The notes under the pieces: generated by a model
The model's database searches: none
Told to the model about the DNA's origin: nothing
Seen by the model: the letters and a program-made list of their open reading frames with translations, nothing else
DNA from: Salinicola avicenniae
GTDB taxonomy: Bacteria; Pseudomonadota; Gammaproteobacteria; Pseudomonadales; Halomonadaceae
Direction: 5' to 3'
DNA length: 64,000 nucleotides
NCBI RefSeq assembly: GCF_023736115.1
Contig: NZ_JAKQZC010000006.1
Coordinates: 248,001-312,000, forward strand
In this document: piece after piece, positions 8,106-26,963 of the stretch
Layout of the letters: each line of letters opens with the position of its first letter
Numbering within the stretch: position 1 is the first letter of the stretch
Program-made: the position numbers and the translations under genes

Positions 8106-8150
8106 TGGTGGGCCCAGTAGGACTTGAACCTACGACCAAGGGATTATGAG
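8106..8150. repeat. Attachment-site copy 1 (attL of element A)
   Basis: These 45 bp are identical to the 3' half of the tRNA-Ile2 gene, including CCA, the T arm and the anticodon CAT on the minus strand. The tRNA 5' half is missing, so this is not a tRNA gene but the far-end target duplication left by site-specific integration. Identical copies occur at 26964-27008 and 39825-39869. Confidence 0.95.
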
Positions 8151-8210
8151 TTCGCTTTTAAAGCAATAAGCTACTGATACTCAAGGAAAAGCGACGGTAA
8201 TCGAGCGAAA

Positions 8211-8217
8211 GGTACAG
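8211..8217 (-). repeat. Candidate integrase arm-type site, left end of element A
   Basis: GGTACAG is the reverse complement of CTGTACC, which occurs twice in direct orientation near the other end of element A (26897 and 26908). Short repeats flanking the core at both ends are expected for arm-type binding sites of tyrosine integrases. This is inference from position and repetition only. Confidence 0.3.
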
Positions 8218-8342
8218 TTCTTTGGAATCAGTAACTTAGCGAAGTTTGAGGATAACACACGAAGCTGGTGTGTGTACTGCTAGTGTACCTGTTCAGGGTG
8301 GATGCGGGTGGATGCATGGCGTACTTTCTGTGCTATCCTGTG

Positions 8343-8355
8343 GTTACTGTGTAAC
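8343..8355. promoter_or_regulatory. Palindrome upstream of the antitoxin, probable autoregulatory operator
   Basis: GTTAC-TGT-GTAAC lies 17 nt before the antitoxin start, overlapping the region just after a TATCCT -10-like hexamer (8334-8339). Ribbon-helix-helix antitoxins normally repress their own promoter through such small palindromes. Confidence 0.5.
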
Positions 8356-8371
8356 ACATGAGGATGGTGTC

Positions 8372-8659
8372 ATGAGCGATGCTACCTTCACCTTTCGGGT
8401 CGATGAAGGCCTGAAAGCAGAATTTGCCAGTGCAGCCAAGGCTCACGATCGTACCGGGGCACAGCTTCTACGCGACTTCATGCGCAACTATGTAGCGCAA
8501 CAGCAGGAAGCGCAGGATTATGATGCCTGGCTGATTGCCAAGGTGGAGCAATCACGGGCCTCGGCAGAAGCTGGTAATCTGATACCTGCCGCCGATGTGG
8601 AAGCCAGGTTTGCTGCGCGCCGTGCGGCTACCCGTGATCGCCTGGCGAAGTCTAAATGA
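8372..8659 (+). CDS. Ribbon-helix-helix antitoxin, type II toxin-antitoxin system
   Basis: The 95-residue protein opens with MSDATFTFRVDEGLKAEF, a beta strand followed by helices as in ribbon-helix-helix (CopG/RelB-like) antitoxins. Its charged helical C-terminal half would wrap the toxin. The frame opens 126 nt earlier, but the ATG at 8372 follows GAGGATGG at proper spacing and begins the conserved strand. It overlaps the toxin gene by the four bases ATGA, giving translational coupling. The pair sits at the extreme left end of element A beside attL, a usual place for stabilising modules in integrative elements. The protein should bind its own promoter palindrome and neutralise the downstream ribonuclease-fold toxin. 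Confidence 0.82.
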   Translation: MSDATFTFRVDEGLKAEFASAAKAHDRTGAQLLRDFMRNYVAQQQEAQDYDAWLIAKVEQSRASAEAGNLIPAADVEARFAARRAATRDRLAKSK

Positions 8660-8943
8660 TGGAGCTGGTCTGGACGCCAGAGGCGATGCAGGATCGTGAC
8701 GACATTTACGAGTACATAGAGCTAGAGAATCCGCTGGCAGCCTTGACGCTGGATGAACTGTTTTCAGAGAAGGCGGCACAGCTGGTAGGCCACCCTAACA
8801 GTGGACGTCCTGGCCGTGTTCCTGGGTCCCGAGAGCTGGTTGCTCACCCCAGCTATATGTTGGTCTATGACGTTGTGGGGATGCAGGTGCGGGTACTGAG
8901 CGTGGTGCACACAGCTCGCCAGTGGCCGCCTTCTCTGGGATAA
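8656..8943 (+). CDS. RelE/ParE-family toxin
   Basis: The 95-residue basic protein has the RelE/ParE fold signature. It begins VWTPEAMQDRDDIYEYI, followed by the central GRPGRVPGSRELV turn and the strand YMLVYDV. It ends with VLSVVHTARQWP, matching the family's I..I.H.rR.WP end. ParE-type members poison gyrase and RelE-type members cut ribosome-bound mRNA; the C-terminal HTARQWP is more ParE-like. It overlaps the antitoxin gene (ATGA). The second ATG at 8659 could also serve as start. It likely stabilises element A, since loss of the element would free the toxin. Confidence 0.85.
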   Translation: MMELVWTPEAMQDRDDIYEYIELENPLAALTLDELFSEKAAQLVGHPNSGRPGRVPGSRELVAHPSYMLVYDVVGMQVRVLSVVHTARQWPPSLG

Positions 8944-9019
8944 AAGCTAACAGAGAACCATGCCGGGCTCATGGGCCTCACTCCTTATAATAACGAATGG
9001 CAACGACAGGGAGCCGTCA

Positions 9020-10792
9020 ATGCATCGCATTAGCTGCATTCATATTGAGAATTTCAGAGCTTGCCGAAATGTCACCTTGCCGCTCGACAGCTATACCCCC
9101 CTAGTAGGGCAGAACAATGCGGGGAAATCCACGATACTGGAAGCCATTCGTTGGGTATTAAAGCCAAGCAATATCAAGGCTTCTGATTTTTATGACGAGG
9201 AAGAGCCTGTCTCCGTTGCCGCCTGTATTGATGGTATCTATGACGAAGTATTGGATCGGATTCCTCATGCTAGGCATCGTCAGGCGATTGAGCCTTACTG
9301 TAGGGATGGAAGGCTCTGGATTCGGGTTACCGCAGCCAACACTAAGTCTAAGAGCCAGGAAGTCTGGAGTGTGAATGAATGCCCTGTAGATGGCGTTCCC
9401 GAGAAATGGCAGGCCTACCCTACTGGACTCCCACAAGCCGTCTCTACCTTATTACCTGAGCCGCTTCATGTGTTGGCCATGCATGATATTGGTGAAGATC
9501 TAGGCAAGGCCAAAACAGGAACAACGATCAAAGGGCTGCTGGATGAGATCATGAAGCCTTTGTTGGCGGCCCATGATGAGCTTACTACTGCGCTCGACAC
9601 TATTCGCAATGTGCTGACCACGGGTGGAGAGCAACGCTCCAACCATTTGCAGCAGTTCGACACTAGTGCTACCGATGCGCTGGAGAACTTCTTTCCTGGT
9701 CTAGCGCTGGATCTGGATTTGCAGGTGGTAGACATTAAGGAGTTCTTCAAGGCGGGAGACTTGCACGTCACCGATACAGTTAGCGGTGACCGGCGCCGTT
9801 TTGATCAGATGGGTGCCGGCGCTCAGCGTGCCATACAGATGGCGTTGATCCGCTATCTGGCTGATGTGCGTCGTGCTGAAGACGATCAGCTTTCCCGCCG
9901 TCTATTGCTGATTGATGAGCCAGAACTGTATTTGCATCCTCAAGGCGTGCGGCGGCTGCGCGAAGCCTTGAAGACGCTTTCAAGCGCAGGCTTTCAGGTG
10001 GTGTTTTCCACCCACTCGCCGCTTATGTTGAGCCGTAACAATGCGCCCAATACCGTGATTGTGGGCAATACGGGGGACGATGGTGTCACCGCTCGCAAGC
10101 CATTGAGTCAAGCTGTCCAGGAAGCTATTGAGGACGCTGAGAGCCAGTCACAAACCCTGTTTGAGCTGGGAAACTTGGTAGACATCTATTTTGCCGACCG
10201 GGTGATTCTCTGCGAAGGGAAAACGGACAGAAGACTGTTGCCGCTAGCCTATGAGCGGCTTTACCAGCGTTCACCTGACCTTGATCACATCGCGTTTGTT
10301 TCCGTGGGTGGCTGCTCCAATTTTGCTAAAGCATTATCGGTGCTGAATGCCATGGATATTCGCGCTTGTGCCATTGCTGATCTGGACTTTGCCTATACTA
10401 ACGCAAGAAAGAGCGGGCTATTGGAGCGAGATAGTGCTGATTTAACAGCCGCCAAGACAGCCCTCAATCGGCTACAACCAGAGCATGGTTTTACCCTGAA
10501 TGGCAATGGACTACCCCAAAAATGCAGCCAGTGGAGCGCGGCAGATATCTGGGCCTGCTTTGCTTCGGATGAGGAAGGCCGAGGCATTGCCCAAGGCAGC
10601 CATGAAGCTCTGAAGACCTCTCGGGTTTGGGCGTGGCCGCAAGGCTGCATCGAGCAGGTGACTGGCGCGGACGACAAAGGCGAAGACGCCATTATTGAAC
10701 AGGAACAGCAATTACGCACCATGAGCGCAGCAGAAATAGAGCAGCAGATGCCCGCTTTCAAAGCGTGCTTCGATTGGATCAGGAGTCTTTAA
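9020..10792 (+). CDS. OLD-family ATP-dependent nuclease (AAA/ABC ATPase plus Toprim)
   Basis: The 590-residue protein has an SMC/RecF-like ATPase domain. Walker A is GQNNAGKST (30-38), Walker B LLLIDEPELYLHP (about 294-306), and the H-loop STHSP (about 330). A C-terminal Toprim domain follows, with VILCEGKTD (about 395-403) and IADLDFAY (about 452). This is the OLD (overcoming lysogenization defect) architecture shared with GajA of Gabija. OLD proteins are ATP-regulated DNA nickases or nucleases acting in phage defence. No UvrD-like GajB follows; instead its stop overlaps the Mod start (TAATG). The start at 9020 is chosen for AGGGAG upstream; an in-frame extension to 8960 has no such site. 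I infer that it works with the downstream restriction genes. Confidence 0.88.
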   Translation: MHRISCIHIENFRACRNVTLPLDSYTPLVGQNNAGKSTILEAIRWVLKPSNIKASDFYDEEEPVSVAACIDGIYDEVLDRIPHARHRQAIEPYCRDGRLWIRVTAANTKSKSQEVWSVNECPVDGVPEKWQAYPTGLPQAVSTLLPEPLHVLAMHDIGEDLGKAKTGTTIKGLLDEIMKPLLAAHDELTTALDTIRNVLTTGGEQRSNHLQQFDTSATDALENFFPGLALDLDLQVVDIKEFFKAGDLHVTDTVSGDRRRFDQMGAGAQRAIQMALIRYLADVRRAEDDQLSRRLLLIDEPELYLHPQGVRRLREALKTLSSAGFQVVFSTHSPLMLSRNNAPNTVIVGNTGDDGVTARKPLSQAVQEAIEDAESQSQTLFELGNLVDIYFADRVILCEGKTDRRLLPLAYERLYQRSPDLDHIAFVSVGGCSNFAKALSVLNAMDIRACAIADLDFAYTNARKSGLLERDSADLTAAKTALNRLQPEHGFTLNGNGLPQKCSQWSAADIWACFASDEEGRGIAQGSHEALKTSRVWAWPQGCIEQVTGADDKGEDAIIEQEQQLRTMSAAEIEQQMPAFKACFDWIRSL

Positions 10793-12612
10793 TGCCCACG
10801 CTTGAGTTCAAGGGTAAGCAGTTTGTTTATGCCCACCATCATGGGGTGCCATTTCGTGAATTACAGGTGGTGCCGGACAAGTCCCTGCCCAACGAAGACA
10901 AAAACCCTTCACTTGATGACAACCTGATTATTCACGGCGATAACCTGGAAGCGCTCAAGGCACTGTTGCCCACCCATGCGGGTAAAGTGGACTGCATCTT
11001 TATCGATCCGCCCTACAATACCGGCAACGAAGGTTGGTGCTACAACGACAATGTACGCTCGCCGCTGATTAAAGAATGGTTGAAGAAGTCGGCCAATCCG
11101 GTGGACAAGGAAGACTTGGAGAGGCATGACAAGTGGTTGTGCATGATGTGGCCCAGGCTGAATTTGTTAAAAGATCTTCTCAGTCAAACAGGCGTTATTT
11201 TTGCCACTATTGATGACAATGAAGGCCATAGACTTAGGGACCTTCTAGATGAAGTATTTGGCACAGAACGACATGTAGCAACTATCGTCTGGCAAAAGAG
11301 ATATTCGCGGGAAAACCGAGAAGCGATCGGCGATGTTCATGACTACGTCCATGTTTACGCAATGGACAAGGAGCACTTTAAGGCTACAAGAAACAAGCTA
11401 TACCCCACCGAGGATCAGCTGAAAGTTTATAGCAACTATGATCCAGAAAAGGACGATAGGTGGCGCCCGATTCCTATGACTGCTCAGGGGCATCGAAAGA
11501 ACCAGATGTATGAAATACAAGCTCCTGGAGGGAAAATTCATACCCCTCCACCTGGCAGGTGCTGGAGCATGGTAGAGAGCGAGTTTAATAAGTTTCTGGA
11601 GGCAGGGAGGGTTTACTTCGGCCAAGACGGTAACTCTCAGCCAAATATTATCAGGTATGCTTCTGAGATAGAAGGTTTTGTGCCTTGGACATGGTGGCCA
11701 AGCGATGAGGCGGGGCATACCGACGAAGCAAAAAAGGAGCTCACTGAAATTATGGGTGGGCCCGTCGAAGGCTTTGACACTATCAAGCCTGTACGACTGC
11801 TTTCCCGGATTCTTGAAATTTCCACAAACAAAGAATCTACTATTTTGGATTCCTTTGCAGGATCAGCAACCACTGCCCATGCTGTTCTTGAAGCTAATAA
11901 GAAAGACGGCGGCAAACGCCGCTTTATCCTGGTCGAGTGTGAGGATTATGCCGATACTCTCACTGCCGAGCGAATTCGCCGTGTGATCAATGGCTACCCC
12001 TATACCGGTACCCAGCGCGAGGATCTGCATCGAGAAAATATTACCTGGAGCACTTTCGGGAACGAGAAAAAGCACAAGAAAGTGATGGATCAGGTGGAAT
12101 CCATCGAAAACCTGCACGGCCACGAGTACGACAAGATCAAAAAGCAAATCAAGGATGGCGTGCTCACCGTGACCGGTGAGCGCAAGGTGGAGAAAACCGC
12201 GCCGGGGCTGGGTGGAAGCTTTACCTATTGCACCCTGGGCGAGCCCATTGATATCGAAAGCCTGCTGACAGGCAAGGATATGCCTGGTTTCGAGGCGCTG
12301 GCCCGTTATGTGTTCTACACCGCCACCGGGCAGTCACTGGAGAAAGTCGGCAAACCCGCACCAGATGGCTTGATTGGCGAGACCGACCTGTTCCGGGTAC
12401 ACCTGTTCTACCAGCCCGATAAGGAGTGGCTGCGCTCCAACGAAGCCGCGCTGAATGCCGAACGGGTGGCGGCGATTGAGCAAGGCAATAAGGGTGGAAA
12501 GCGTGCCATCGTCTTTGCCGTGGCCAAGTTTATGAGCCAGAAAGAACTAACTGCCCGGCGCATCGAGTTCTGCCAGTTGCCCTATGCCGTCCACCGGATT
12601 CTGGGAGACTGA
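10792..12612 (+). CDS. Type III restriction-modification DNA methyltransferase (Mod)
   Basis: The 606-residue beta-class N6-adenine methyltransferase carries the catalytic motif DPPYNTG (residues 72-78). The AdoMet-binding motif LDSFAGSATTAH comes later (about 353), the order usual for Mod subunits of type III systems. Between them lies the target recognition region, visibly more AT-rich than the flanks (about 11160-11880). Mod methylates one strand of a short asymmetric site and guides the Res subunit. The ATG at 10792 shares bases with the stop of the OLD gene, and only 2 nt separate it from Res, so the genes are co-expressed. The recognition sequence cannot be read from sequence alone. Confidence 0.92.
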   Translation: MPTLEFKGKQFVYAHHHGVPFRELQVVPDKSLPNEDKNPSLDDNLIIHGDNLEALKALLPTHAGKVDCIFIDPPYNTGNEGWCYNDNVRSPLIKEWLKKSANPVDKEDLERHDKWLCMMWPRLNLLKDLLSQTGVIFATIDDNEGHRLRDLLDEVFGTERHVATIVWQKRYSRENREAIGDVHDYVHVYAMDKEHFKATRNKLYPTEDQLKVYSNYDPEKDDRWRPIPMTAQGHRKNQMYEIQAPGGKIHTPPPGRCWSMVESEFNKFLEAGRVYFGQDGNSQPNIIRYASEIEGFVPWTWWPSDEAGHTDEAKKELTEIMGGPVEGFDTIKPVRLLSRILEISTNKESTILDSFAGSATTAHAVLEANKKDGGKRRFILVECEDYADTLTAERIRRVINGYPYTGTQREDLHRENITWSTFGNEKKHKKVMDQVESIENLHGHEYDKIKKQIKDGVLTVTGERKVEKTAPGLGGSFTYCTLGEPIDIESLLTGKDMPGFEALARYVFYTATGQSLEKVGKPAPDGLIGETDLFRVHLFYQPDKEWLRSNEAALNAERVAAIEQGNKGGKRAIVFAVAKFMSQKELTARRIEFCQLPYAVHRILGD

Positions 12613-12614
12613 GC

Positions 12615-15263
12615 ATGGAGCTGAAGGAATACCAGCAAGGCGTACTCGGCAAGCTGGATCGTTATCTGACGGTACTGGCTGAGCAGCGCGAAGAGGCGGA
12701 AGACTTCGTTGAGTTCCAGAAGAGCAAGGGCAAGGCAATCACTTTGGGTGATTATTGCCGAGAGGCTTGGGATCAACTTAATACCGATCGCTTGTTGCCC
12801 TACCTCTACCAAAATGGCAATCCGGTGGTGGCACCCTACCTGTCGCGTCTTGATGGGCTGTGTGGCTCAATTCCTAATATCTGCCTAAAGGTGCCCACCG
12901 GCGGTGGCAAGACGCTGCTGGCCACGGCGGCACTGGAGCGGGTGCAAACAGACTATTTCAAACGCCAGACTGGGCTGGTGCTGTGGGTGGTGCCATCGGA
13001 GGCGATTTACCGGCAAACCTGGAAGCAACTGGCCAACCGGGAACACCCTTACCGGCAGATGCTGGAACGCGCTTCTGGCGGACGGGTGAAGCTGCTGGAA
13101 AAAAGCGACGCCTTTACCCGCAGGGATGTGGAGGGCCAATTGTGCGTCATGCTGCTGATGCTGCCCTCGGCAGCCCGCAAGTCCAAGGAAACGCTGCGGC
13201 TGTTCCGCGACAGCGGCCGCTTCACCTCTTTCTTCCCGCTGGAAGACGACGGTGAAGCTATCGAGGCCCTGCTGCAACAGGTGCCCAACCTGGATCAGAA
13301 TGACCTAGCTGATCTGGGATACGGTGACGGCATTGTGCCGGGTTCGGTCTCGGTCAAGCAAAGCCTGGGCAATGTCTTGCGGTTGGTGCGCCCGGTGGTG
13401 GTTATTGACGAAGGTCACAAGGCCTATTCCGATACTGCCCGCGATACCCTGGCGGGCTTTAACCCGCGCTTTATCCTGGAACTCTCCGCAACGCCTAATA
13501 CCAACGGCAAGCATCAATCCAATGTGCTAGTGAATGTGCCGGGAGCTGACCTCAAAGACGAGGAAATGATCAAGCTGCCGATCAATGTGATCAACGAGGG
13601 CAAAGGCGGCTGGAAACACACTCTATCTCTGGCCCATGCCAAACAGCAGGGACTGGAACAGGCGGGACTGGCGTTCCAGAATGAGTCTGGCCGCTATATT
13701 CGCCCCATCGTGCTGGTTCGCGTGGAACGCACCGGCAAAGAGCAGCGTGACGCCGGATTTGTACACGCCGAGGATGCTCGTGAATATCTGCGTGACCAAC
13801 TCGGGGTGAAAGAGAAGCATATTCGCCTTAAAACCTCCAGCGATGATGAACTGGCAGATGAAGACCTGCTTTCACCCACCTCACCGGTGCGCTTTATCAT
13901 CACCAAGGACGCGCTGCGTGAGGGCTGGGACTGCCCATTTGCCTATGTGTTAGCGGTCTTGTCCCGTACCACTGCCACCACAGCACTAACCCAGATGATC
14001 GGACGCGTATTGCGTCAGCCTCATGCTCGCGCAACTGGGGTAGAAGCACTGGACGAGTGTTACGTCTACACCTTCGATCAGGATGTGACAGAAGCCGTGA
14101 ATGGTGTGCGCAAGGGACTGGAAGAAGAAGGCATGGCTGACCTGGCTTCCAGCGTCAAGTCCGTTGATCCAAACAGTAATCAGGCCCGCAACATGCGCCG
14201 GGAGACTATCAACCGCAGTAGTAAATTTTCGGGCCTACCACCGATCTTTTTACCGCGTGTCCTACATCAGGATAGCGACACCCCAGATGGGTATCGTCCC
14301 CTAGATTATGAGCGGGATATACTGGGTGCCTTGGATTGGGAAGCATTGCAATTCCTGACCGCCGATAAGGCATCTATGGACGATGCCAAGCTGCAGCGTA
14401 CAGTGGCTCGCATTAGCCTCGACCGGAAAGCAAAAGAGGGCGAACAGACGGTATTTGATCTAGAGCAGGAAGATATCGAAGCCTTGCCGGAGGAAGGGCT
14501 GGACACACCCTATCTGGTGCGCCAGTTGCTAGACGTGGTGCCCAACCCCTGGCAAGGAATGCGCTTGTTGGATGAAACCCTGACCGCCTTGCGAGCTAAG
14601 GGCGTCACCGATGAACAGATTTATATCAATCGGTTGGACCTAGTGCAGTCCATGAAGGCGGATTTGCGCGGACAGGTGAACGCTATGGCCGAATCACTAT
14701 TCCTTGCCAAACTGGAAAAAGGTGAAATTGCATTACGGCTGGTATCATCCAATGACCCGGCCTTAAACTGGAAAATTGCAGAGACCTTGGAAATCGATGT
14801 TTCCGATGTAGACCCACTGCTCTTCCGGAAAAATGGCGATCCGCTGGAAAAAATCCTGTTCGAGAAGGTCTATCAGAAGGAGTTCAATGACCTGGAAAAG
14901 AACACGGCCTGGTATCTGGATGAGCACCAGTGTGTGCATTGGTGGCACCGTATCGCCGTAAACCAGCGCTCCTATGGACTGCAAGGCTGGCAGAAACATA
15001 AGGTATATCCTGATCTACTAGCCTGTGTGCATGGCACCGAAAATGGCAAGTTCCGTTTCTCGGTGCTGGAAACCAAAGGCGACCACCTGAAAGGCAATGA
15101 TGATACCGAGTACAAGCGCAAACTATTTGAGCTGCTGACCCGATATGCCGATGTCTCGGCAGAAGTCGGCCAGCTTGAGCTTGAGGGCCAAGACGAACCA
15201 ATTCGATTCCAGATGGTGATGGAACAAGACTGGAAGCAGAGCGTCTCGGCCTCTCTGGGATAA
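12615..15263 (+). CDS. Type III restriction endonuclease subunit (Res), SF2 helicase plus PD-(D/E)XK nuclease
   Basis: The 882-residue protein starts with a superfamily 2 helicase core: Walker A PTGGGKT (about 94-101), DEGH box in VVIDEGHKAYSD (about 265), and SATPN (about 290). The second RecA domain includes ALTQMIGRVLRQ. The C-terminal nuclease reads VYPDL, then about 15 residues, then VLETKG (about 818), an intact PD-(D/E)XK site. Res needs Mod to recognise DNA, translocates or diffuses after ATP hydrolysis, and cuts about 25 bp from the site. It starts 2 nt after Mod (GGGAG ribosome site) and ends 4 nt before the HEPN/Toprim gene. All key motifs are intact, so it is probably active. Confidence 0.92.
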   Translation: MELKEYQQGVLGKLDRYLTVLAEQREEAEDFVEFQKSKGKAITLGDYCREAWDQLNTDRLLPYLYQNGNPVVAPYLSRLDGLCGSIPNICLKVPTGGGKTLLATAALERVQTDYFKRQTGLVLWVVPSEAIYRQTWKQLANREHPYRQMLERASGGRVKLLEKSDAFTRRDVEGQLCVMLLMLPSAARKSKETLRLFRDSGRFTSFFPLEDDGEAIEALLQQVPNLDQNDLADLGYGDGIVPGSVSVKQSLGNVLRLVRPVVVIDEGHKAYSDTARDTLAGFNPRFILELSATPNTNGKHQSNVLVNVPGADLKDEEMIKLPINVINEGKGGWKHTLSLAHAKQQGLEQAGLAFQNESGRYIRPIVLVRVERTGKEQRDAGFVHAEDAREYLRDQLGVKEKHIRLKTSSDDELADEDLLSPTSPVRFIITKDALREGWDCPFAYVLAVLSRTTATTALTQMIGRVLRQPHARATGVEALDECYVYTFDQDVTEAVNGVRKGLEEEGMADLASSVKSVDPNSNQARNMRRETINRSSKFSGLPPIFLPRVLHQDSDTPDGYRPLDYERDILGALDWEALQFLTADKASMDDAKLQRTVARISLDRKAKEGEQTVFDLEQEDIEALPEEGLDTPYLVRQLLDVVPNPWQGMRLLDETLTALRAKGVTDEQIYINRLDLVQSMKADLRGQVNAMAESLFLAKLEKGEIALRLVSSNDPALNWKIAETLEIDVSDVDPLLFRKNGDPLEKILFEKVYQKEFNDLEKNTAWYLDEHQCVHWWHRIAVNQRSYGLQGWQKHKVYPDLLACVHGTENGKFRFSVLETKGDHLKGNDDTEYKRKLFELLTRYADVSAEVGQLELEGQDEPIRFQMVMEQDWKQSVSASLG

Positions 15264-15267
15264 TCCT

Positions 15268-18991: not shown

Positions 18992-19759
18992 TTAATAGCG
19001 ATCTGCTGCGCTAGGTTGGTAATTCCAGGTACGCATCTGCCGTTCCCGCGCTTCCCCTCTGGCGTTAGCGTCCAGTTCGGCGGCGAGACGGGCGGCTTCA
19101 GCGTTCTGCTGAGCAATCAGCAAGCTGCGAATTTGCAGGAGTTGGTTAGCCTGGTTACTGGCGAGCTGGTTGGCGTAACCAATGGCGGCAAGCTGGCCAT
19201 CCGCGCCCTGGGCGGCGGATTGCAAACGCTCAAGCCGTCGAGCATCAGACACCAGGTTATCCTGTTGCTGATCCAGCCCTCGGAAGAGCGCATCGTTGGC
19301 CGCTTTTTGCGATTCTGACGCCAGGCGACGGTTTTCATCCATCGCTGCAAGTTCGGCATCCGTGCAACCGCCGCCATTGAAGCAGGGGGAACTCCGGTAA
19401 TACGCTACGTCCTGGAACTTGCCCAGGTAGGCATCGAGGCTGCCGAGCTGGTTCTGGTAATGCTGAAGCGTATTGGTGGCTTGGATCAGATCATTAATCG
19501 TGGATTGTGCCCTGTCCCAGATATAGGCCGCTGGAGCCATGGTGTTTTGCAACTGGTTTTCATACTGCTGCAACTGCGTTTGATACTGCTCGATCTGCTT
19601 AAGAGTCTGAGAGACGGACTCCATCGCCGTCATAACGTTTTGCTGCAGGTTGGTACCGTCGACGACAGGGATGCCCGCTTGGGCAGGCATGGAAGCGGTT
19701 AACGCCAAGGACATGACCGCGACAGGAATTTTAGCCGCTAAAATTCTTTCTCTTCTCAT
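18992..19759 (-). CDS. trbJ: TrbJ/VirB5-like conjugative transfer protein
   Basis: The 255-residue exported protein has a signal peptide ending in PAQA (about residue 28). A Gln-rich coiled-coil follows (KQIEQYQTQLQQYENQLQN around 54-72), then a two-cysteine loop (SPCFNGGGC near 125-133), the typical TrbJ layout. In IncP systems TrbJ is a periplasmic, VirB5-like component needed for mating and, with TrbK, for exclusion. The ATG at 19759 has only a weak ribosome site (AAGAG). Notably, codons 6-10 contain a KorB-type operator palindrome, so the coding start doubles as a regulatory site. It heads the leftward trbJ-K-L-88aa-63aa unit. A downstream start at Met16 is possible but lacks a ribosome site. 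Confidence 0.85.
   Translation of the reverse strand: MRRERILAAKIPVAVMSLALTASMPAQAGIPVVDGTNLQQNVMTAMESVSQTLKQIEQYQTQLQQYENQLQNTMAPAAYIWDRAQSTINDLIQATNTLQHYQNQLGSLDAYLGKFQDVAYYRSSPCFNGGGCTDAELAAMDENRRLASESQKAANDALFRGLDQQQDNLVSDARRLERLQSAAQGADGQLAAIGYANQLASNQANQLLQIRSLLIAQQNAEAARLAAELDANARGEARERQMRTWNYQPSAADRY
19726..19746. promoter_or_regulatory. KorB-type operator (copy 1) inside the start of trbJ
   Basis: The core TTTAGCCGCTAAA (19730-19742) matches the RK2 KorB operator consensus TTTAGCSGCTAAA exactly, and the palindrome extends to 21 bp. It overlaps trbJ codons 5-11. No KorB gene occurs in the window, so the expected binder would come from elsewhere. Confidence 0.78.
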
Positions 19760-20045
19760 GATTGAGTGCTCTTAGCTTCATCGTGACTAAGTTGCACTCA
19801 CCAACCTGTAGCGGCTCGCTCATGGAGATTGCGAGCCACTACCCCTGCCGGAGAACCCAGCGGTGAAGTGTGGACCTCTACAGGGATAGCTCGTCACTTA
19901 CTATCCCGGCGTCCGACCTGCGCGACACCGTCAGAACGCGCGGCCAATGGTTGTTGAACATCGGTGTCATTGTCCTGGGGAACGGTTAGGCTTCCCAAGG
20001 GTTAATCGCATCTACTGTTTGTTGCCGCCTTCCAAAGGGAAAGCG

Positions 20046-21827
20046 CTATAGTGAGCGTCCCTTTTGCTGTCTTTTTGCCCTCTTGGCGTCCATCTCTGCC
20101 CGTAACTTGGCTTTGCGGCGCTCTTGCTCGCTCGGCCCCCGTGGGGGCGGTGTCGGAGTCTTGCCCGCTTGTCCCTCAAGGTGAAGCACATCGGCCTGGG
20201 ACAGCGATTGCAGCCGGTTCCGGCGCACCGGGGGTGGCGGCTGACCGATGGGCGGCACTCCCGCCCGTTTGCTTCGGGTCTTGGCCGGGGCGGTGTTCTC
20301 GCCGTTCGCCAGGGCTTGGCGGCGACGTTCCAGCCCGGCGTCCGCAAACCGGATAGGCAACTGTCCATCTACTGCCGCCAGGATCACCCGCGCTTTGAAC
20401 TCGGGCGAACCGTTCACGGTGATGCGCTCGCCGTAGCGTTCCATCGCCATCCTTAGCGCGTTCTGGATGCCTGCCTGGTCGGACTCCCTGGAGACCTGGA
20501 GCCGGTCGCCATCGTCGCGCACGGCGCTGGCTCCGGCCCGGTAAATGATGGTGCCCTTCTTGGTGATGTTGTCGATCACCGGCGCATGGCCGAGCTTCGC
20601 CTGTCCCTCACCCTTCAAGGTGTTGCCCTTGAGGCCCTGGGCGGCCTCCCTGGCTCGCAAAGCGGCTAGGGCCTCGATATCGCCCTGCAGGGCTTCCCGT
20701 TTGAGCCAGTCGGCCCATGTGCGGCGCCCGTGGGCTTCATGGATCGTCTGGCGTTCCTCGCGGTACTGCTTCTGGATCGCGTCAATGTTGGCTTTCAGGG
20801 CGCTGCTGGCCTGCGCATACAGCACCTTCTTGGTCAGCCTGCCGCTGGTGAGCTTGATGGCCGCCCGCCGGGCCTTGCCCTTCTTCTTGGCGTTCTCAAT
20901 CCGGCGGTCTTTCTGCCGCCGGGCTTTGTCCAGGGCCGCCGTCTTATTGGCTGCCGCGCTCTGCTGTTCTGATTTGAAGCGGGCGTAAAGCTCAGTAGTG
21001 TTCACGCGCAGCCGTACCGGGTCTTTGCGGTACTGGCGGCGGGGTTTGGCCTGCTGCGCCTGGTCAGGCTCGAACGGGCCGAAACGGGCCTCCAGTTTCG
21101 GCTTGGAGAAATCCCGCCCCAGGGTGCTCGCTTTGACCACGGCATCATCACCGGCCACGACAACCAGCCCATTCCCCCGCGCCCGGAGTTCCAAGCCGTT
21201 GTCACGCATGACCTGGTGCAGTCCGCCCCAAGACTGCGCGGCTTTGATGTCGTCCAGGCACTCGCGCTTGATCCAGCCGATCAGACTTTCAATACCGGCA
21301 TGACGCTCCATGTCGACCGCTCGGGCCTCGGCTCCGCGTCGGCGCGACATGTGGTTGTCCTGCTGCAACCCGTAATCCCGTTCCATGACCTCGCATAACT
21401 CGGCCAGAGTCTGGTGTGGGTAGTAGGGTTCGTGGATGATGTTGCGCGTGGGGTGGATCTTGTTGACGGCGATATGGATGTGCAGGTTGTCGGTATCGTT
21501 GTGAACGGCGCTAATGCGCTGATGCTCTCCAAAGCCCAGCCCCTTGCAAATACGGTCCTCGATGGCCACCAAGGTATCGGCCTCAACCTGTTCCCCAGCC
21601 CGGAAGCTGACAATCAAGTGATAGGTTTTGTCGCTCTTCGCTCGGGTATTACCGAACTGGGTCGCTAGTACCTCGCTGACGGCATCCTGGACCGAATACG
21701 CCACACAGTTGGTCAGCCGTACCGCGCCAAGACGGTGCTCCTTGCTTTGCTCGTCGGTGATGTAGTTCACCAGACCAGCAAAGTCTGACTTGCCCAGGGA
21801 GCGCATGGGGACGTGTTTGGCGATCAT
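20046..21827 (-). CDS. traI: TraI relaxase, IncP type (MOBP)
   Basis: The 593-residue relaxase begins MIAKHVPMRSLGKSDF and closely follows RK2 TraI in the N-terminal domain. Tyr22 in LVNYI is the expected nicking tyrosine. His109, His116 and His118 lie in VHNDTDNLHIHI, the metal-binding motif III. The enzyme would cut oriT upstream of traJ, stay bound to the 5' end and lead the strand into the recipient. The ATG at 21827 is chosen because it reproduces the RK2 numbering; an upstream GTG at 21842 has no ribosome site. The protein is shorter than RK2 TraI (about 730 aa), mainly in the Lys/Arg-rich C-terminal part. A KorB operator sits just upstream. Confidence 0.92.
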   Translation of the reverse strand: MIAKHVPMRSLGKSDFAGLVNYITDEQSKEHRLGAVRLTNCVAYSVQDAVSEVLATQFGNTRAKSDKTYHLIVSFRAGEQVEADTLVAIEDRICKGLGFGEHQRISAVHNDTDNLHIHIAVNKIHPTRNIIHEPYYPHQTLAELCEVMERDYGLQQDNHMSRRRGAEARAVDMERHAGIESLIGWIKRECLDDIKAAQSWGGLHQVMRDNGLELRARGNGLVVVAGDDAVVKASTLGRDFSKPKLEARFGPFEPDQAQQAKPRRQYRKDPVRLRVNTTELYARFKSEQQSAAANKTAALDKARRQKDRRIENAKKKGKARRAAIKLTSGRLTKKVLYAQASSALKANIDAIQKQYREERQTIHEAHGRRTWADWLKREALQGDIEALAALRAREAAQGLKGNTLKGEGQAKLGHAPVIDNITKKGTIIYRAGASAVRDDGDRLQVSRESDQAGIQNALRMAMERYGERITVNGSPEFKARVILAAVDGQLPIRFADAGLERRRQALANGENTAPAKTRSKRAGVPPIGQPPPPVRRNRLQSLSQADVLHLEGQAGKTPTPPPRGPSEQERRKAKLRAEMDAKRAKRQQKGRSL

Positions 21828-21844: not shown

Positions 21845-21857
21845 TTTAGCGGCTAAA
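21845..21857. promoter_or_regulatory. KorB-type operator (copy 2) between traJ and traI
   Basis: TTTAGCGGCTAAA is a perfect match to the RK2 KorB operator consensus. It fills the 34-nt gap between the end of traJ and the start of traI, placing it to block transcription entering the relaxase gene. Confidence 0.78.
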
Positions 21858-21861: not shown

Positions 21862-22233
21862 TCACGACCTGGTCCTCGGCTGCACCACGGATTTCAATAC
21901 CTGACTCATTTCCTCCTGAGTGGCTTCGATCCTTCCGAGCAGGCTAAGGATGGTAGCCGTCCCGAAGTGAGCCGTTCTCACGTCATCTGTCATCCAGAGC
22001 TTCAGTAATCCACCCAAACGGCCCAAGTCACCATTGACACGAACCAGCTCGCGGACATACTCGTAGTCCATAACACCATTGACCTGATAGCCCTGCCCCA
22101 CTTCCCGCAGATAACAGGCAACGCTTAGCCCTGCCTGCTTGGCATTGGATTCAATCATTTCTCTCTCTTCCGGAAGGCAGTACACCTTGAGCGGCGTGCT
22201 GTTCTTCCGTGTCACCCTTTGCTTCTCACTCAT
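21862..22233 (-). CDS. traJ: TraJ, IncP-type relaxosome protein
   Basis: The 123-residue protein has the same length as RK2 TraJ and retains its recognisable blocks: PLKVYCLPEERE, then AKQAGLSV, then GDLGRLGGLLKLW followed by TDDVRTA. TraJ binds an inverted repeat next to nic in oriT and brings TraI to the nick. The start at 22233 follows AGGAGC at ideal spacing; the 40-residue extension to 22353 would run into oriT and is rejected. It is transcribed away from oriT, the same arrangement as in RK2, and precedes traI. This is one of the clearest signs that the element's transfer system is of IncP-1 origin. Confidence 0.92.
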   Translation of the reverse strand: MSEKQRVTRKNSTPLKVYCLPEEREMIESNAKQAGLSVACYLREVGQGYQVNGVMDYEYVRELVRVNGDLGRLGGLLKLWMTDDVRTAHFGTATILSLLGRIEATQEEMSQVLKSVVQPRTRS

Positions 22234-22304
22234 GCCAGCTCCTATCTCAGATTCCATGCCTTGCAGAGCAGGATTTCCGTTGAGCACCGCAGGTGCGAAT
22301 AAGG

Positions 22305-22370
22305 ACCAGTGAAGAGGAACACCACGCTTGCGGGGTGGGACTACTTCACACATCCTGCCCGCACTTCAGC
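22305..22370 (+). other. oriT: IncP-type origin of transfer (oriT) with nic site
   Basis: CATCCTGC at 22351-22358 fits the IncP nic consensus YATCCTG|C, placing the cut between 22357 and 22358. The preceding bases hold GTGAAG (near 22309) and CTTCAC (near 22344) as outer arms. An inner GGAACACC...GGGGTGGG repeat lies between them and parallels the TraJ-binding repeat of RK2 oriT (GGAACACCC...GGGTGGGC) in order and spacing. It lies directly upstream of traJ, as in RK2. No traK gene follows on the other side. Confidence 0.85.
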
Positions 22371-22611: not shown

Positions 22612-22657
22612 GCCCCTCAAATGTCAATGAATCAGAAGCGCTGCCCCTCAAGTGTCA
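22612..22657 (-). repeat. Two TrfA-type iterons (RK2-like)
   Basis: GCCCCTCAAATGTCA (22612-22626) and GCCCCTCAAGTGTCA (22643-22657) are the reverse complements of TGACATTTGAGGGGC and TGACACTTGAGGGGC. Both variants occur among the iterons of the IncP-1 plasmid RK2 oriV. The two copies are 31 bp apart. No trfA gene is present in the window. Confidence 0.75.
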
Positions 22658-23220: not shown

Positions 23221-23229
23221 TACTCCCCC

Positions 23230-23442
23230 TCAGGACTCGTCAATCAGCCCAGCAACGTCAGTTGCACGAAAATAGACACGCCTACCAACTTTCCTCTTGG
23301 CGGCATTCCATTTCAAAGCAAATTCTGATTGGCTCTGCAACGATATTCGGAGACCATCGGGACTACGCTTCAATAATTCCGACAAATCGGTTAATGAAAG
23401 CAGAGGACCATAACGCTCAAGCAACTGCTCTTCGGTTGTCAT
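23230..23442 (-). CDS. Small AlpA/excisionase-like helix-turn-helix protein
   Basis: The 70-residue protein begins MTTEEQLLERYGPLLSL and ends VGRRVYFRATDVAGLIDES. A short helix-turn-helix followed by a wing that reads 'G rr v.f...dv..li' is the usual pattern of AlpA, excisionase or MerR-like plasmid proteins. The ATG at 23442 follows GGAGAT; a codon at 23463 is unsupported. Being the first gene of a two-gene operon in an integrating element, it could be the recombination directionality factor or a regulator of the iteron region. Neither role can be proven from sequence. Confidence 0.6.
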   Translation of the reverse strand: MTTEEQLLERYGPLLSLTDLSELLKRSPDGLRISLQSQSEFALKWNAAKRKVGRRVYFRATDVAGLIDES

Positions 23443-23648
23443 AAATATCTCCAGATAACGCAAAGCAAGATTTCATTTTTAATATCTACGCCATCTTAGG
23501 AATACTTTCAACCATTTGCTCTTATTAGAAAAAGTATAGCTACACTTTCCTTTAAAAGTTTACCTATACTTTCCAGCAGCACTAACCATAATCAAAACAA
23601 AACCGCCAAGGCCGTATATAAAAACTTAAGCAGCAGCCAGGGCATCCC

Positions 23649-23737
23649 GCCCCTCAAATGTCAATGATTACGCTAGGCGAATCGCCTCGCGCATGGGGCT
23701 CGGTCAATGCACTCCATTTTATTGACACTTGAGGGAA
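23649..23737. repeat. Further TrfA-type iterons, one in each orientation
   Basis: GCCCCTCAAATGTCA (23649-23663) is identical to the first iteron at 22612. TGACACTTGAGGG (23723-23735) lies in the opposite orientation and matches 13 of 15 positions of the RK2 iteron. The pair brackets about 75 bp. Confidence 0.65.
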
Positions 23738-23843: not shown

Positions 23844-23874
23844 AAGAAGAATTTTAGCTGCTAAAATTCTTCTT
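23844..23874. promoter_or_regulatory. 31-bp perfect palindrome with KorB-type core (copy 3)
   Basis: The arms AAGAAGAATTTTAGC and GCTAAAATTCTTCTT flank a single T. The 13-bp core TTTAGCTGCTAAA (23853-23865) fits the KorB operator except for the central base (T in place of C/G). It lies about 30 bp from a run of 14 G residues. It could also act as a hairpin in RNA. Confidence 0.65.
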
Positions 23875-24143
23875 TGCACAACCTGAACTGATCCTATCTC
23901 TCCGGCCAATGTAGCATTTTGTATATTTCTACAAAGCACTACATTATTTGGGAGGTCACTTTTTCTAAAGCCTCATCTATAATACAACTTATATCTGGAG
24001 AGCTTCCATCTAATCAGTCACTGCAAAAAACACTTCATAGACTAAATCTCGAAGCATGATATAATGATAGATAATACTTTACAAAATCTACCACTATACT
24101 TATAGGCTCCCTTTACAAGATCTCACAACAAATATCACACCCT

Positions 24144-24692
24144 CTAGCTATTTCCAATGTCTTTCACAACAACTTTCCAAAGAGATGGGATACTTAAGCT
24201 TTCGATCTTAGTCAAAGTATCGCGATCATCCTTATCAGAAAAAAATCGGCTAATGACAAAAATAGCAAATAGTCCCGTCAAAAACGAAAAACAGACAATT
24301 GGATCCAACAACCTACCGTTAAACATAGACTCTACCCATTTTTCCTGAGACTCTGGTGTGAATTCAGAACTAAAAAAAGGCCAGATCGATGAAAGCAAAC
24401 CGAGCGTCACACAAGTCGCGGAAAAGTTCATTATGACTTTATGTGGATTCTTCTTGGGAATACTTAAAGAAAAAACACTCTCCCCATTCCTCTTACGAGG
24501 AAGTATCACTTCAAGTATATATAACCCAAGATATGTGGGAAACGCCAGTATGGCAAGCATCACAGAGTATACTTTTATTCCTATCCCCCCCGCTACAGCA
24601 GCCAAGAGCAGAATCATCATTATAGCAACTATGCTATGAAAAAAACCAACGTATTCCATCACATAATTCTCCATGAATTCACTGAAGCTCAA
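24144..24692 (-). CDS. Four-helix membrane protein paired with an Mrr-like nuclease
   Basis: The protein has about 182 residues and four predicted membrane segments, with a charged loop (PRKRNG...) between helices 2 and 3 and a polar C-terminus. I do not recognise a family. The longest frame starts at a TTG (24692) with GGTGGAA before it; the ATG at 24674 is the alternative. It is the second gene after the Mrr-like nuclease on the same strand (75-nt gap) and shares its AT-rich composition, unlike the GC-rich transfer genes. Pairing a nuclease with a small membrane protein is a recurring plan in abortive-infection systems, so a defence role is possible but unproven. Confidence 0.6.
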   Translation of the reverse strand: MSFSEFMENYVMEYVGFFHSIVAIMMILLLAAVAGGIGIKVYSVMLAILAFPTYLGLYILEVILPRKRNGESVFSLSIPKKNPHKVIMNFSATCVTLGLLSSIWPFFSSEFTPESQEKWVESMFNGRLLDPIVCFSFLTGLFAIFVISRFFSDKDDRDTLTKIESLSIPSLWKVVVKDIGNS

Positions 24693-24767
24693 ATTCCACC
24701 AGGACCAGCCACACCCAGATTAATCGATAGGTTATAAATAAAAAACAACATCATCCACATTGCTTTC

Positions 24768-25685
24768 CTACTTCCGTACCACCCTCCCGTTTTCATCAAA
24801 ATCGAATTCTCTTAGATTTTTATCAGTAAGAAACCTAGAGACCTTTCCATTCTTATCCACAAGGACAAACCGATGCCCACTGTCATCAGTAATTCGAAGC
24901 TCTTCTGTATATTTTTCATAAGGAACCTCAAACTCCATACCATGAATTTCTGCTAAAATTCCGCTTATTTTTATATAATGATTTTTTAGAATAAAGCATC
25001 CGTGTGACTTGCCTGTATCAGAATCTATTCCTCCATAGCCTTCTAAAGTGAGATCATGTAGTGACAGAGCCTCATTACCGTATGAGTCGTAGAAATGGCT
25101 AAGGCCAAGTTGATAATTTATACGTTCTTCTCCTCGCTTGGCTAGAGCTTTCACAGCAGACATTCCGTTTTCTGTGAAGTGTGGCAACCAGCGCCCTTTC
25201 TCTGGCTGAGGCATATTTACATGGATCTTGACAACTACCGTCTTCACAAACCCTTCTTCGTCAAGCTCGGTTCCTGGTCTAAGCTGCCAGAGCGTTATCG
25301 GCTTTCCTAATATTTCCTCGGCTGACTCCGCATACTTTTTTGCAGGACTTGTGTATTCAGTAGCTGAATAAAAAACGCCCGCATCGATATCTTTTAAATC
25401 TGGCAATGCACCGCCAAGTTTTTGCAAGTCGCCACGTCCCACTTTTTTACTCTGGAGCGAGTAGTCTTTTGCCTCACCCATTATAGATGTATCTTTTGAT
25501 TCCCCATAGATATCCAGCTGATATAACGTATTAGAGAAGTGCCCTCGTAGTTTTTCATCATGAAAAACTTCTCCCTCTTGGATTATATAAGAAGCGATTG
25601 ATGCCAATCGCTCGAACGCTGTGCCTGACTTCTCTGGCGCATAACCAAATATTTCTTTAAAAATTTTTTCTATAGGAGACACCAT
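24768..25685 (-). CDS. Putative Mrr-like restriction endonuclease-fold protein
   Basis: The 305-residue protein has an N-terminal nuclease-like domain. TAFERLASIAS is followed by YQLDIYG, then MGEAKDYS about 13 residues later and GDLQKLGGAL after that. This gives the D...ExK...Q spacing of Mrr-type PD-(D/E)XK enzymes. The C-terminal half contains YD-rich beta repeats ending DKNGKVSRFLTD...FDENGRVVRK, with no known family. AAGGGAAA precedes the ATG. Mrr-type enzymes cut modified or foreign DNA. The gene is AT-rich and sits between the plasmid-type genes and the integrase, a typical cargo slot. The nuclease call is from motif spacing alone. Confidence 0.58.
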   Translation of the reverse strand: MVSPIEKIFKEIFGYAPEKSGTAFERLASIASYIIQEGEVFHDEKLRGHFSNTLYQLDIYGESKDTSIMGEAKDYSLQSKKVGRGDLQKLGGALPDLKDIDAGVFYSATEYTSPAKKYAESAEEILGKPITLWQLRPGTELDEEGFVKTVVVKIHVNMPQPEKGRWLPHFTENGMSAVKALAKRGEERINYQLGLSHFYDSYGNEALSLHDLTLEGYGGIDSDTGKSHGCFILKNHYIKISGILAEIHGMEFEVPYEKYTEELRITDDSGHRFVLVDKNGKVSRFLTDKNLREFDFDENGRVVRK

Positions 25686-25805
25686 GGCTTTCCCTTATTA
25701 TATAAAATAAAATACCACAGTTAACATAATTACATATTTACTTGCAGACAAACCATCCAAAGAACAATAACTCAACATGCAGTCTATTATAAGTATTAAC
25801 CACAG

Positions 25806-26867
25806 CTACTGGCCTCTCAAACAATCAAGCTTCTCCACCAAATCCTCCGCCCTCAGGTGCGTATACCGCCTCAGCATCTGCATGGACTTGTGCCCACTGA
25901 TCGCGGCGACCTCCTGGTCGGATAGCCCCGCCTCTACCAGCCGGCTGACGGCTTCATGGCGTAAGTCGTGAAAGCGGAAGTCATTAAGCCCGGCCTTCTT
26001 CTTCGCTTGGTTCCACAGCTTGGTGTAGGCATAGGGGCCGCGCTTACCATCCTTTCCAGGCTCACCGAAGAACACCAGGGCGCAGTCGAGCGGGCGCACC
26101 GGGTTGTTCAGCGCCTGCTTGAACACCTCGGTGGCCGCCTGGGTCAGCGGTACCAGGCGGGCCTCGTTGTTCTTGGTGTCGGTGAGGCGCACTATTCGGC
26201 GTTTCACGTCGACCTGTGCTCGGGTGAGGGTCAGGATCTCCGACGAGCGCATGCCCGTCTCCAGGGCGATTCTGGCGATCCAGGCCAGCATGGGATTGCT
26301 GTGCTGCCGTAGCACGGCGAACAGGCGCTTCTCCTCGTCGGGGCTCAGGCGGCGGTCGCGCCCTTCTCCAGGGCTTGGTTTGCGGATGTTCTGGACGGGG
26401 TTGTAGGTCAGGCCTAGGCCCCATTCCTGGATGGCGACGGTATAGAGGTGGCCGAGCAGGGCGAGCTCCAGGCGCACGGTATTGGGGCTGATCGGTGAAC
26501 CTCTACGCCCAAGGCTGTTCAAACGAGTATCGCGATAATTTGCGATGAGGTCAGGCGTTAACGCCGCGAGAGAATACTTGCCCAAGTGTTCGATAAGCCT
26601 CACAGCCTTACCGTGCTCGCTCTTCTGGGTGCTGGGCTTCTTGGTAGGGGTAACATCGGCCAAGTATCGTTTGAGGGCCGACTCCAAAGTCATGCGCTCT
26701 GAAGCACTGCGCTGGATATAGACACCACGCACCATTTCATCTTCAGTGCGGCGTGACCAATCCTGGGCATCTCGTTTGGTACGAAAGGTCTTGGCGGTAG
26801 TGGGCCAGCCGGTCTTTCGAATCACGGCTTTCCAGCTACCAGAGGGGGTCTTGACGATGGTGGCCAT
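25806..26867 (-). CDS. int: Tyrosine integrase of element A
   Basis: The 353-residue tyrosine recombinase has an intact catalytic set: Arg207 (TGMRSSE), His300 and Arg303 (FHDLRHEA), His326 (ISGHKS) and Tyr335 (RRYTH). An Arm-type N-terminal domain (residues 1-60) and a SAM-like core-binding domain (about 60-165) precede it. The ATG at 26867 follows TGGAG; an earlier codon at 26897 adds atypical residues. The gene starts about 100 bp from the right attachment core, reading away from it, so it belongs to element A. It should catalyse integration into and excision from the tRNA-Ile2 3' end. GC content is closer to the chromosome than that of the neighbouring cargo. Confidence 0.93.
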   Translation of the reverse strand: MATIVKTPSGSWKAVIRKTGWPTTAKTFRTKRDAQDWSRRTEDEMVRGVYIQRSASERMTLESALKRYLADVTPTKKPSTQKSEHGKAVRLIEHLGKYSLAALTPDLIANYRDTRLNSLGRRGSPISPNTVRLELALLGHLYTVAIQEWGLGLTYNPVQNIRKPSPGEGRDRRLSPDEEKRLFAVLRQHSNPMLAWIARIALETGMRSSEILTLTRAQVDVKRRIVRLTDTKNNEARLVPLTQAATEVFKQALNNPVRPLDCALVFFGEPGKDGKRGPYAYTKLWNQAKKKAGLNDFRFHDLRHEAVSRLVEAGLSDQEVAAISGHKSMQMLRRYTHLRAEDLVEKLDCLRGQ

Positions 26868-26896
26868 GCAAAACTCCAGGGGCTGAAGGATCGGCA

Positions 26897-26914
26897 CTGT
26901 ACCGAAACTGTACC
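26897..26914 (+). repeat. Candidate integrase arm-type sites, right end of element A
   Basis: CTGTACC occurs at 26897-26903 and again at 26908-26914, 11 bp apart, one helical turn. A third copy in inverse orientation lies near the left end at 8211. They sit between the integrase start and the attachment core. Confidence 0.35.
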
Positions 26915-26963
26915 CTTGGACTATGGGACTCTCCAGCGTAAAGCGCTAAACTATTGAAAAGAT

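Follow-up and report, generated by a model that had tools for sequence, protein, structure and literature searches.

Anatomy of an island at tRNA-Met in Salinicola avicenniae, a probable satellite of IncP-like plasmids

The window analyzed is a stretch of 64,000 nucleotides of the Salinicola avicenniae genome (contig NZ_JAKQZC010000006.1, positions 248,001 to 312,000). It contains element A, an island of 18.9 kb (8106-26963) integrated at tRNA-Met. Direct repeats of 57 nt at 8106 and 26964 bound the island, and the first 45 nt of the repeat duplicate the 3' end of tRNA-Met(CAT), whose intact gene lies at 39825-39901. Element A has an integrase and flanking attachment (att) repeats, and a relaxase and oriT of its own without a complete transfer apparatus, which is the anatomy of an integrative and mobilizable element (IME). 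A preliminary description of this DNA had proposed that it is a satellite of IncP plasmids. The host genome comprises 4,027,897 bases in 11 contigs and is 99.99% complete. The coordinates of all features are given in Table 1.

TraI, TraJ, TrbJ, TrbK and TrbL of element A all scored over the NCBI curated cut-offs. Compared with the proteins of plasmid R751 (IncP-1 beta), TraI, TraJ, TrbJ and TrbL were matched and TrbK was recognized by its family model. TrbK was the most diverged of the four aligned shared proteins, with 34% identity to R751 compared to 54-67% for TrbL, TrbJ and TraJ. The exact nic position within oriT is presumed to be that of RP4. Element A combines an IncP-type MOBP TraI and TraJ with TrbJ, TrbK and TrbL as the sole pore proteins found, TrbD and TrbH not being among the queries. 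With the same R751 queries no homologue of KorA, KorB, IncC, TrfA, TraG or TraK was found in element A, nor of TrbB, C, E, F, G or I. In the whole host genome no TrfA was found at E<=0.01, no KorB at E<=1e-15 and no IncP-type TraG at E<=1e-80. The TrfA search gave no match in its 14 control genomes, yet one family genome of 275 was over the cut-off. Element A thus cannot transfer by itself, and at these cut-offs the genome shows no helper. TraK gave no match at E<=1e-4 in element A or in the other 12 halomonad islands, making element A a variant rather than a typical member of the IncP island kind. The scanned proteins of element A included no RepA or RepC Pfam family, only a winged-helix protein of 125 amino acids. 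F-type TraG, TraH and TraN were not among the families found in element A, and AcaCD sites lay outside the search.

These results agree with the preliminary description on an IncP-type oriT with traJ and traI (nic identical to R751, curated models passed), on a tRNA integrase (PF00589, with att repeats derived from tRNA-Met) and on trbJ-trbK-trbL as the only pore genes found. Its statement that korB, trfA, traG and trbB-I are missing holds for the genes queried, a set that leaves out TrbD and TrbH. A korB/trfA/traG set elsewhere in the genome, which would speak against a satellite, was not found at the cut-offs used.

Patterns for the KorB operator, TrfA iteron, KorA operator and DnaA box followed the consensus of each. 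The three KorB-type operators of the preliminary description were confirmed as exact 13-bp copies of TTTAGCNGCTAAA at 19730, 21845 and 23853, where 0.02 were expected per window at <=1 mismatch and no shuffle reached three. They are the only exact KorB-type sites in the 4.03 Mb genome. The conserved operator stands at gene starts, as in a KorB regulon. R751 has KorB sites at the same two places, the traJ-traI junction and the first codons of trbJ. The third site has no R751 gene as neighbor. It lies in island DNA, ~340 bp upstream of the candidate alpA promoter, and with its palindrome recalls the kfrA promoter of R751.

Distinct satellites with a trbJ start numbered 37 (38 with L026, a duplicate of L025). 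Of these 37, 35 had the exact trbJ operator, and the 35 come from gamma- and betaproteobacteria. In the 35 site-bearing trbJ genes (L019 and L100 left out) the operator codons were TTA in 35/35, GCG in 34 and GCC in one, GCT in 35/35 and AAA in 35/35. The other invariant Leu, Ala and Lys columns of the trbJ alignment used 2 to 6 codons each. TTA made up 215 of 3,732 Leu codons (6%) elsewhere in traI, trbJ and trbL and was commoner in the Vibrio and Marinomonas loci (17 to 29 of 100-112 Leu codons). The 35/35 counts arise partly from the choice of site-bearing genes, the fair figures being 35/37 loci and the contrast with the other codon columns. No match to KorB, KorA, TrfA, TraG or TrbB/C/E/F/G/I was found in the DNA examined at any of the 38 satellite loci. 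Codon usage shows nucleotide-level selection on the trbJ operator, beyond that on the residues, in elements without a detected korB.

In the alpA control region, a non-coding stretch of ~0.4 kb holds the third KorB site together with iterons and a KfrA-type palindrome. The AlpA-like protein, a candidate excisionase, was 96-100% identical in 12 sister islands. Across the 13 islands 148 of 523 columns of the whole region were invariant, compared to 12 of 13 for the alpA-side KorB site, where the free center base varies. The KorA-like sites had 10/12 and 9/12 invariant columns, the palindrome arms 10/14 and 12/14, and the distal iteron 8/13. The palindrome was named KfrA-type from position and sequence only. 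Its pattern was found in 11 of the 13 islands and was missed in element A, where it is degenerate, and in L099, where an arm is shortened. R751 and small mobilizable plasmids have a similar palindrome at their kfrA promoters, and the palindrome also occurs in islands without a kfrA match. In IncP plasmids KfrA regulates its own gene, which KorA and KorB control as well (PMC7783346). A run of 14 G (23802-23815) in the control region is possibly a phase-variable tract or a sequencing-prone site. In L099, a sister island, a run of C occurs at another place in this region.

Four RK2-like iterons had been described. Three are exact copies of TGACANTTGAGGGGC (22612, 22643 and 23649), while the fourth (23723) is degenerate with two mismatches; 0.34 matches were expected at <=2 mismatches. 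The three exact iterons are the only TGACANTTGAGGGG in the host genome. Among 293 genomes of the order (12 of those listed in its own family) the exact double-iteron pattern was found in the host genome only. The oriT-side tandem pair was kept in 13/13 islands, one copy in L003 having one mismatch, and marks the point upstream of which the two island variants no longer share homology. Some betaproteobacterial islands (L012, L030, L073) and plasmids (L077, L078) have a compact composite site, in which a KorB operator follows an iteron at a distance of 4 or 7 bp.

A structured leader of ~100 nt, conserved in satellites, starts ~210 nt upstream of trbJ. In an alignment of 17 distinct leaders, chosen among those found, 96.4% of cells were paired in the drawn structure. 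Seven pairs were changed on both sides, compared to 3.5 in shuffles (0/500 as high) and 0-3 when slid. Of five measures of the whole structure one, further pair types, did not exceed the shuffles (14 vs 14.9). RNAalifold recovered the same main helices unaided. The ACACCG/CGGTGT pair (helix 1, possible pseudoknot) is invariant and without covariation. The covariance model matched in 35 of the 38 satellite loci, 17 of which had supplied it, and not in L012, L019 and L073. Against 46 other loci, most of them whole or partial IncP-type plasmids, there was one weak match (L054, 25 bits), and R751 gave none. In L054, an IncP-like conjugative locus, this weak relative (1829-1905) precedes a small open reading frame (ORF), has a KorB site next to it and is possibly an ancestor. 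In 369 genomes of the class the model matched the host genome and one other place (G639), which is inside an ORF and was taken as chance. Among 72,556 plasmid records the leader copy of the window was found in 20 (19 mobilizable, 1 non-mobilizable) and that of pMATVIM-7 in 27 (26 mobilizable, 1 conjugative). The record classed as conjugative, L132 (7343-9110), is an IncF plasmid of Klebsiella quasipneumoniae with traI and the leader but no trbJ, between insertion sequence elements. In the searches made, the leader was almost confined to mobilizable plasmids and IncP satellites. Rfam gave no match to the leader at the gathering threshold and, at E<=1, only CcsR1, far below threshold and mostly outside the leader. 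Because it is located upstream of the first gene of the trbJKL operon, the leader most likely controls TrbJKL expression. It may act at the DNA level instead.

Table 1. Features of element A and its integration site, in order of position
Feature	Position	Strand	Evidence or remark
Distal att site, 45-nt copy of tRNA-Met 3' end	8106..8150	.	Direct repeat with 26964
RHH/ParE-type toxin-antitoxin pair	8372..8943	+	Toxin PF05016 E 6e-16; partner RHH_9 below cut-off
Cargo: OLD-family nuclease, type III Mod and Res, HEPN/Toprim protein	8960..16554	+	
trbL (VirB6-like)	17247..18737	-	TIGR02783 E 7.6e-73
trbK, entry-exclusion lipoprotein	18751..18981	-	TIGR04359 40.7 bits, cut-off 23; 34% to R751 TrbK
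trbJ (VirB5-like)	18992..19759	-	NF010452 E 1.8e-120; 65% to R751
Predicted KorB-type operator inside trbJ codons (Leu-Ala-Ala-Lys)	19730..19742	.	
Structured leader, two covarying helices, possible pseudoknot	19869..19967	-	
traI, MOBP relaxase	20046..21827	-	NF041893 E 7e-173
Predicted KorB-type operator between traJ and traI	21845..21857	.	13/13 islands and L012, L024, L030
traJ, oriT-binding relaxosome protein	21862..22233	-	NF010451 E 1.6e-58; 72% to R751 over 113 aa
traJ-II RNA element (RF01760), overlaps nic region	22257..22360	-	Rfam 94.3 bits, gathering 40
oriT nic region TTCACACATCCTGCCCGC	22345..22362	+	Identical to R751 over 18 nt
TrfA-type iteron, oriT-side tandem pair	22612..22626	-	
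TrfA-type iteron, oriT-side tandem pair	22643..22657	-	31-bp spacing
Winged-helix protein, 125 aa	22843..23220	-	Weak HTH_36
AlpA/HTH_17-like small protein, candidate excisionase	23230..23442	-	PF12728 E 0.028, weak
Candidate alpA operon promoter TTGAAA-17-TAGATA	23481..23511	-	Alignment reading
KorA-like operator 2, GTATAGCTACAC	23534..23545	.	2 mismatches to GTTTAGCTAAAC
KorA-like operator 1, GTTTACCTATAC	23558..23569	.	2 mismatches to GTTTAGCTAAAC
TrfA-type iteron, exact, one of inverted pair	23649..23663	-	Kept in 8/13 islands
TrfA-type iteron, 2 mismatches	23723..23737	+	0-2 mismatches in 12/13 islands, 3 in L099
Predicted KorB-type operator upstream of alpA operon	23853..23865	.	13/13 islands
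Degenerate copy of KfrA-type palindrome	23910..23943	.	
Cargo: membrane-like protein and Mrr-like nuclease	24144..25685	-	PF04471 E 2.6e-6 (24768-25685)
Tyrosine integrase	25806..26867	-	PF00589 E 1.7e-33
att site between element A and tandem element B	26964..27008	.	Direct repeat
Intact tRNA-Met(CAT), integration target of tandem array	39825..39901	-	ARAGORN

With TraI as query, 73 loci were recovered from genome contigs. At E<=1e-50 TraI was found in 15 of 275 Halomonadaceae genomes. Thirteen of these are islands like element A (itself included), one is plasmid-like with traK and kfrA (L007/L094) and one is divergent (L096/L100, TraI 74%). The preliminary description had suggested looking in other genomes for an integrase beside traJ-traI-trbJKL, and this arrangement recurs in the sister islands. 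TraI was 93-97% identical in all 12 of them and the integrase 91-95% in 11, the twelfth (L003) giving a short match only. A tRNA-Met is located beside the integrase in 11 of the 12 (L003 had no tRNA in the DNA examined). In the DNA examined a tRNA-end copy of at least 32 nt marked the far boundary in 8 of the 13 islands; L001 had 15 nt only, L006, L097 and L098 had none and L003 was not tested. Of 13 genomes queried with a chromosomal DEAD-box helicase of the window, 8 gave a match at E<=1e-100. Its identity was 56-72% in seven sister-island hosts and 73% in the divergent G203, and five sister hosts gave no match. The identity of TraI at 93-97% compared to 56-72% for the helicase speaks for recent horizontal movement of the islands between hosts.

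The cargo of element A is rich in defense-type genes. PADLOC predicted Old (E 6.8e-219), MTase_III (2.5e-244) and REase_III (0) at 8960-16554, and the HEPN/Toprim protein matched PF18871 (E 2.3e-54). No Pfam family matched the membrane-like protein at 24144-24692. Other loci have different defense-type genes, among them Abi_alpha in L001 and a DncV-like cyclase in L014, which may belong to the islands there. A tandem element B (26964 to ~39824) is located between element A and tRNA-Met and has the same target tRNA. Its ORFs, named by reading, are presumably filamentous-prophage-like (Zot-like, secretin-like, TraX-like, integrase). A DndB/DpdB-like gene is located near the edge of element B.

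The IncP island is reportedly known from Brucella suis (Lavigne 2005) and Burkholderia glumae (Yoshii 2012), by way of Guedon et al. 2017. Like element A it is integrated, carries a MOBP TraI, TraJ and the pore proteins TrbJ, TrbK and TrbL and has a proposed IncP helper. It differs in having TraK (in B. glumae) and RepA/RepC, none of which was found in element A. Element A is located at tRNA-Met with KorB sites and iterons, whereas L030, located after guaA and with RepC, is the nearest IncP-island example among the loci inspected. Guedon et al. 2017 regarded the IncP island (TraI/J/K and TrbJ/K/L) and GIsul2 (TrbJ/K/L) as probable parasites of IncP plasmids (PMC5704250). GIsul2 shares with element A the TrbJ/K/L cassette, an integrase and a proposed IncP helper but has no relaxase or relaxosome genes, uses a guaA site and carries sul2 (PMC9376610, PMC5704250). 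Its excision was shown experimentally (PMC9376610). SGI1 also swaps a few pore subunits of its helper and has sites read by helper regulators including ParB. It relies on the activator AcaCD and an F-type pore, whereas element A would use repressors and a T-type pore, and the genes are unrelated (PMC10954446, PMC5389848). Plasmids of the pMATVIM-7/pPE52IMP type (PMC9501424; L077) have the trbJ leader in common with element A, as well as traJ-traI-trbJKL, iterons and KorB sites. Unlike element A they replicate, with kfrA, traK and their own rep, and gave no match to its integrase. A P. aeruginosa plasmid family with traK/J/I and trbJ/K/L was described as probably mobilizable (PMC9501424). R751 (L074, L075) shares nic, traJ/traI, trbJKL homologues and two KorB positions but is a complete self-transmissible plasmid with no trbJ leader match.

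The preliminary description knew of no described chromosomal element with this full set. The lifestyle had already been proposed, and the bypass of exclusion had been argued for SGI1 and, in 2017, for IncP islands (PMC5704250). The words KorB and TrfA are absent from the text of Guedon et al. 2017 (PMC5704250). In the open-licence PMC literature searched, a scope outside which most subscription papers fall, neither KorB, KfrA or TrfA sites on IncP islands nor the trbJ leader were found described. Element A is thus of a known kind as an IncP parasite, and the part not found described in that literature is its repressor-site wiring and leader.

Element A is probably an IME of the IncP island kind, of a halomonad branch, wired to the repressors of its helper. 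From the observed anatomy, missing parts, sites, nucleotide-level conservation and horizontal spread we infer binding, timing, helper identity and exclusion bypass as follows. Element A would contribute the integrase, oriT, TraJ and TraI, the last two acting at its own oriT. An IncP-like conjugative plasmid would lend the coupling protein TraG and the remaining Trb core, which, judged from their absence in element A, the helper must supply. The TrbJ, TrbL and TrbK of the satellite would substitute for three exchangeable parts of the mating machine of the helper. At 34% identity to R751 TrbK, its TrbK suggests a different exclusion type, and the divergent TrbK/TrbL/TrbJ would permit entry into helper-bearing cells and exclusion of its own kind. 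Helper KorB would be read at the predicted sites of traI, the trbJKL operon and the alpA control region, keeping the satellite transfer genes as low as those of the helper. IncP genes undergo zygotic induction. Zygotic transfer would release repression, and relaxase and TrbJKL would be made while the helper builds the pore. The distal KorB site and the pair of KorA-like sites close to the candidate promoter lead to the prediction that helper KorB and KorA would repress the operon of the candidate excisionase. Promoters at distances of 45 to >1,000 bp are silenced by KorB, with KorA at the promoter (PMC11790492). The trbJ leader, not found in R751, probably adds control of TrbJKL.

A wider proposal is put forward tentatively and may well not hold. 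A guild of integrated and plasmid-borne IncP satellites would read helper KorB, KfrA and TrfA via mimic sites and share a new leader RNA controlling a swapped VirB5/exclusion/VirB6 cassette. This would be an SGI1-like parasitism, independent and run by repressors.

Several points weigh against the wiring of element A to helper repressors. Two of the three KorB sites are inherited positions shared with R751. KorB is a repressor, and in a cell that has no helper nothing would repress traI and trbJ, unless another factor, perhaps the leader, keeps them silent. The trbJ operator is missing from L019 and L100; in L019 a KorB site precedes the trbJ match by 30 bp. Both KorA-like sites carry two mismatches. 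The alpA-proximal iteron has 3/13 invariant columns, no better than its surroundings, with 0-1 mismatches in 8 of the 13 islands and loss in 5. No helper was found in the host genome and IncP-like helpers look rare in Halomonadaceae. TrfA was over the cut-off in 1/275 family genomes (24% identical to R751) and IncP-type TraG, at ~45%, in 6/275, while 16 weak matches (30-37%) to R751 KorB were not counted as helpers. The earlier suggestion that element A senses KorB levels in the manner of SGI1 is weak, as a repressor has the opposite sign to the SGI1 activator and two sites are at R751 positions. The nucleotide-level selection on the trbJ operator speaks in favor of the wiring.

The KorB sites may instead be mainly parS-like, the KfrA site and iterons helping. 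The IncC, KorB and KfrA of the helper would then stabilize the excised circle and the helper would be destabilized, as by SGI1 with the ParB of IncC plasmids. KorB is a ParB-family protein (PMC11790492) and the KfrA of RA3 interacts with IncC and KorB (PMC7783346). The clustering of the KorB site, palindrome and iterons is also consistent with such a role, and SGI1 has functional helper parS sites beside its rep and traGH promoters (PMC10954446). This explanation is nevertheless rather unlikely, as two of the three sites are at gene starts in positions shared with R751, the KfrA palindrome of element A is degenerate and, with no replication gene identified, a free circle would be short-lived.

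The trbJKL genes may alternatively serve defense, in that TrbK with its cognate TrbL and TrbJ would enable the host to shut out or poison IncP plasmids that arrive. IncP plasmids are known to use TrbK for exclusion (PMC8923210), and the richness of the island in defense-type genes would fit such a role. Transfer of pKPC_UVA01 needs trbJ and trbL but not trbK (PMC8923210), so that trbJ and trbL need not be kept for exclusion alone. As oriT and the relaxase are also intact and conserved, a purely defensive role is unlikely.

The preliminary description had also suggested replication with helper TrfA after excision, which is not supported. A TrfA-dependent origin was rejected as the main explanation, as the sites are scattered over 1.1 kb and no exact DnaA box was found near the iterons of element A, whereas the oriV of R751 has two. 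The sites are 31 and 1006 bp apart, in no tandem array as in R751 oriV, and an iteron array with DnaA boxes is lacking. For the winged-helix protein 26 homologues were found, with no Pfam domain listed and no named function. Two variants of the replication region occur among close islands, with either the single winged-helix gene or a DnaT/lambda P-like (O/P-like) pair (L001 7637-9161). Replication modules of other satellites are lambda O/P-like in L001, RepC in L030 (next to guaA) and RepA_C in L014, and all three retain iteron-like sites. Because these sites are kept beside other replication genes, tuning or titration of TrfA, or some further function, is the more likely role. A helper-dependent origin is very unlikely despite the three exact iterons and the lack of the O/P-like pair of L001 in element A.

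Finally, the sites might be functionless leftovers of an IncP ancestor, as the traI and trbJ operators stand where R751 has them, helpers look rare in the family and two satellites have lost the trbJ operator, but this is highly improbable and was rejected as the main explanation on the trbJ operator codons, which are invariant at synonymous positions across 35 gamma- and betaproteobacterial satellites, while the alpA-side KorB site is 12/13 invariant in otherwise diverged DNA and iterons remain exact where upstream DNA was replaced.

IncP plasmids are classic broad-host-range vehicles. If satellites such as element A tap the IncP repressor network, plasmid regulators also signal to parasites, and the helper-satellite conflict known from phages and IncC plasmids would extend to IncP. 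Where korB is absent, codon-level conservation of a KorB site would offer an inexpensive way to test for helper dependence from sequence, and the leader that they share would be a marker for such satellites in genomes and mobilizable plasmids.

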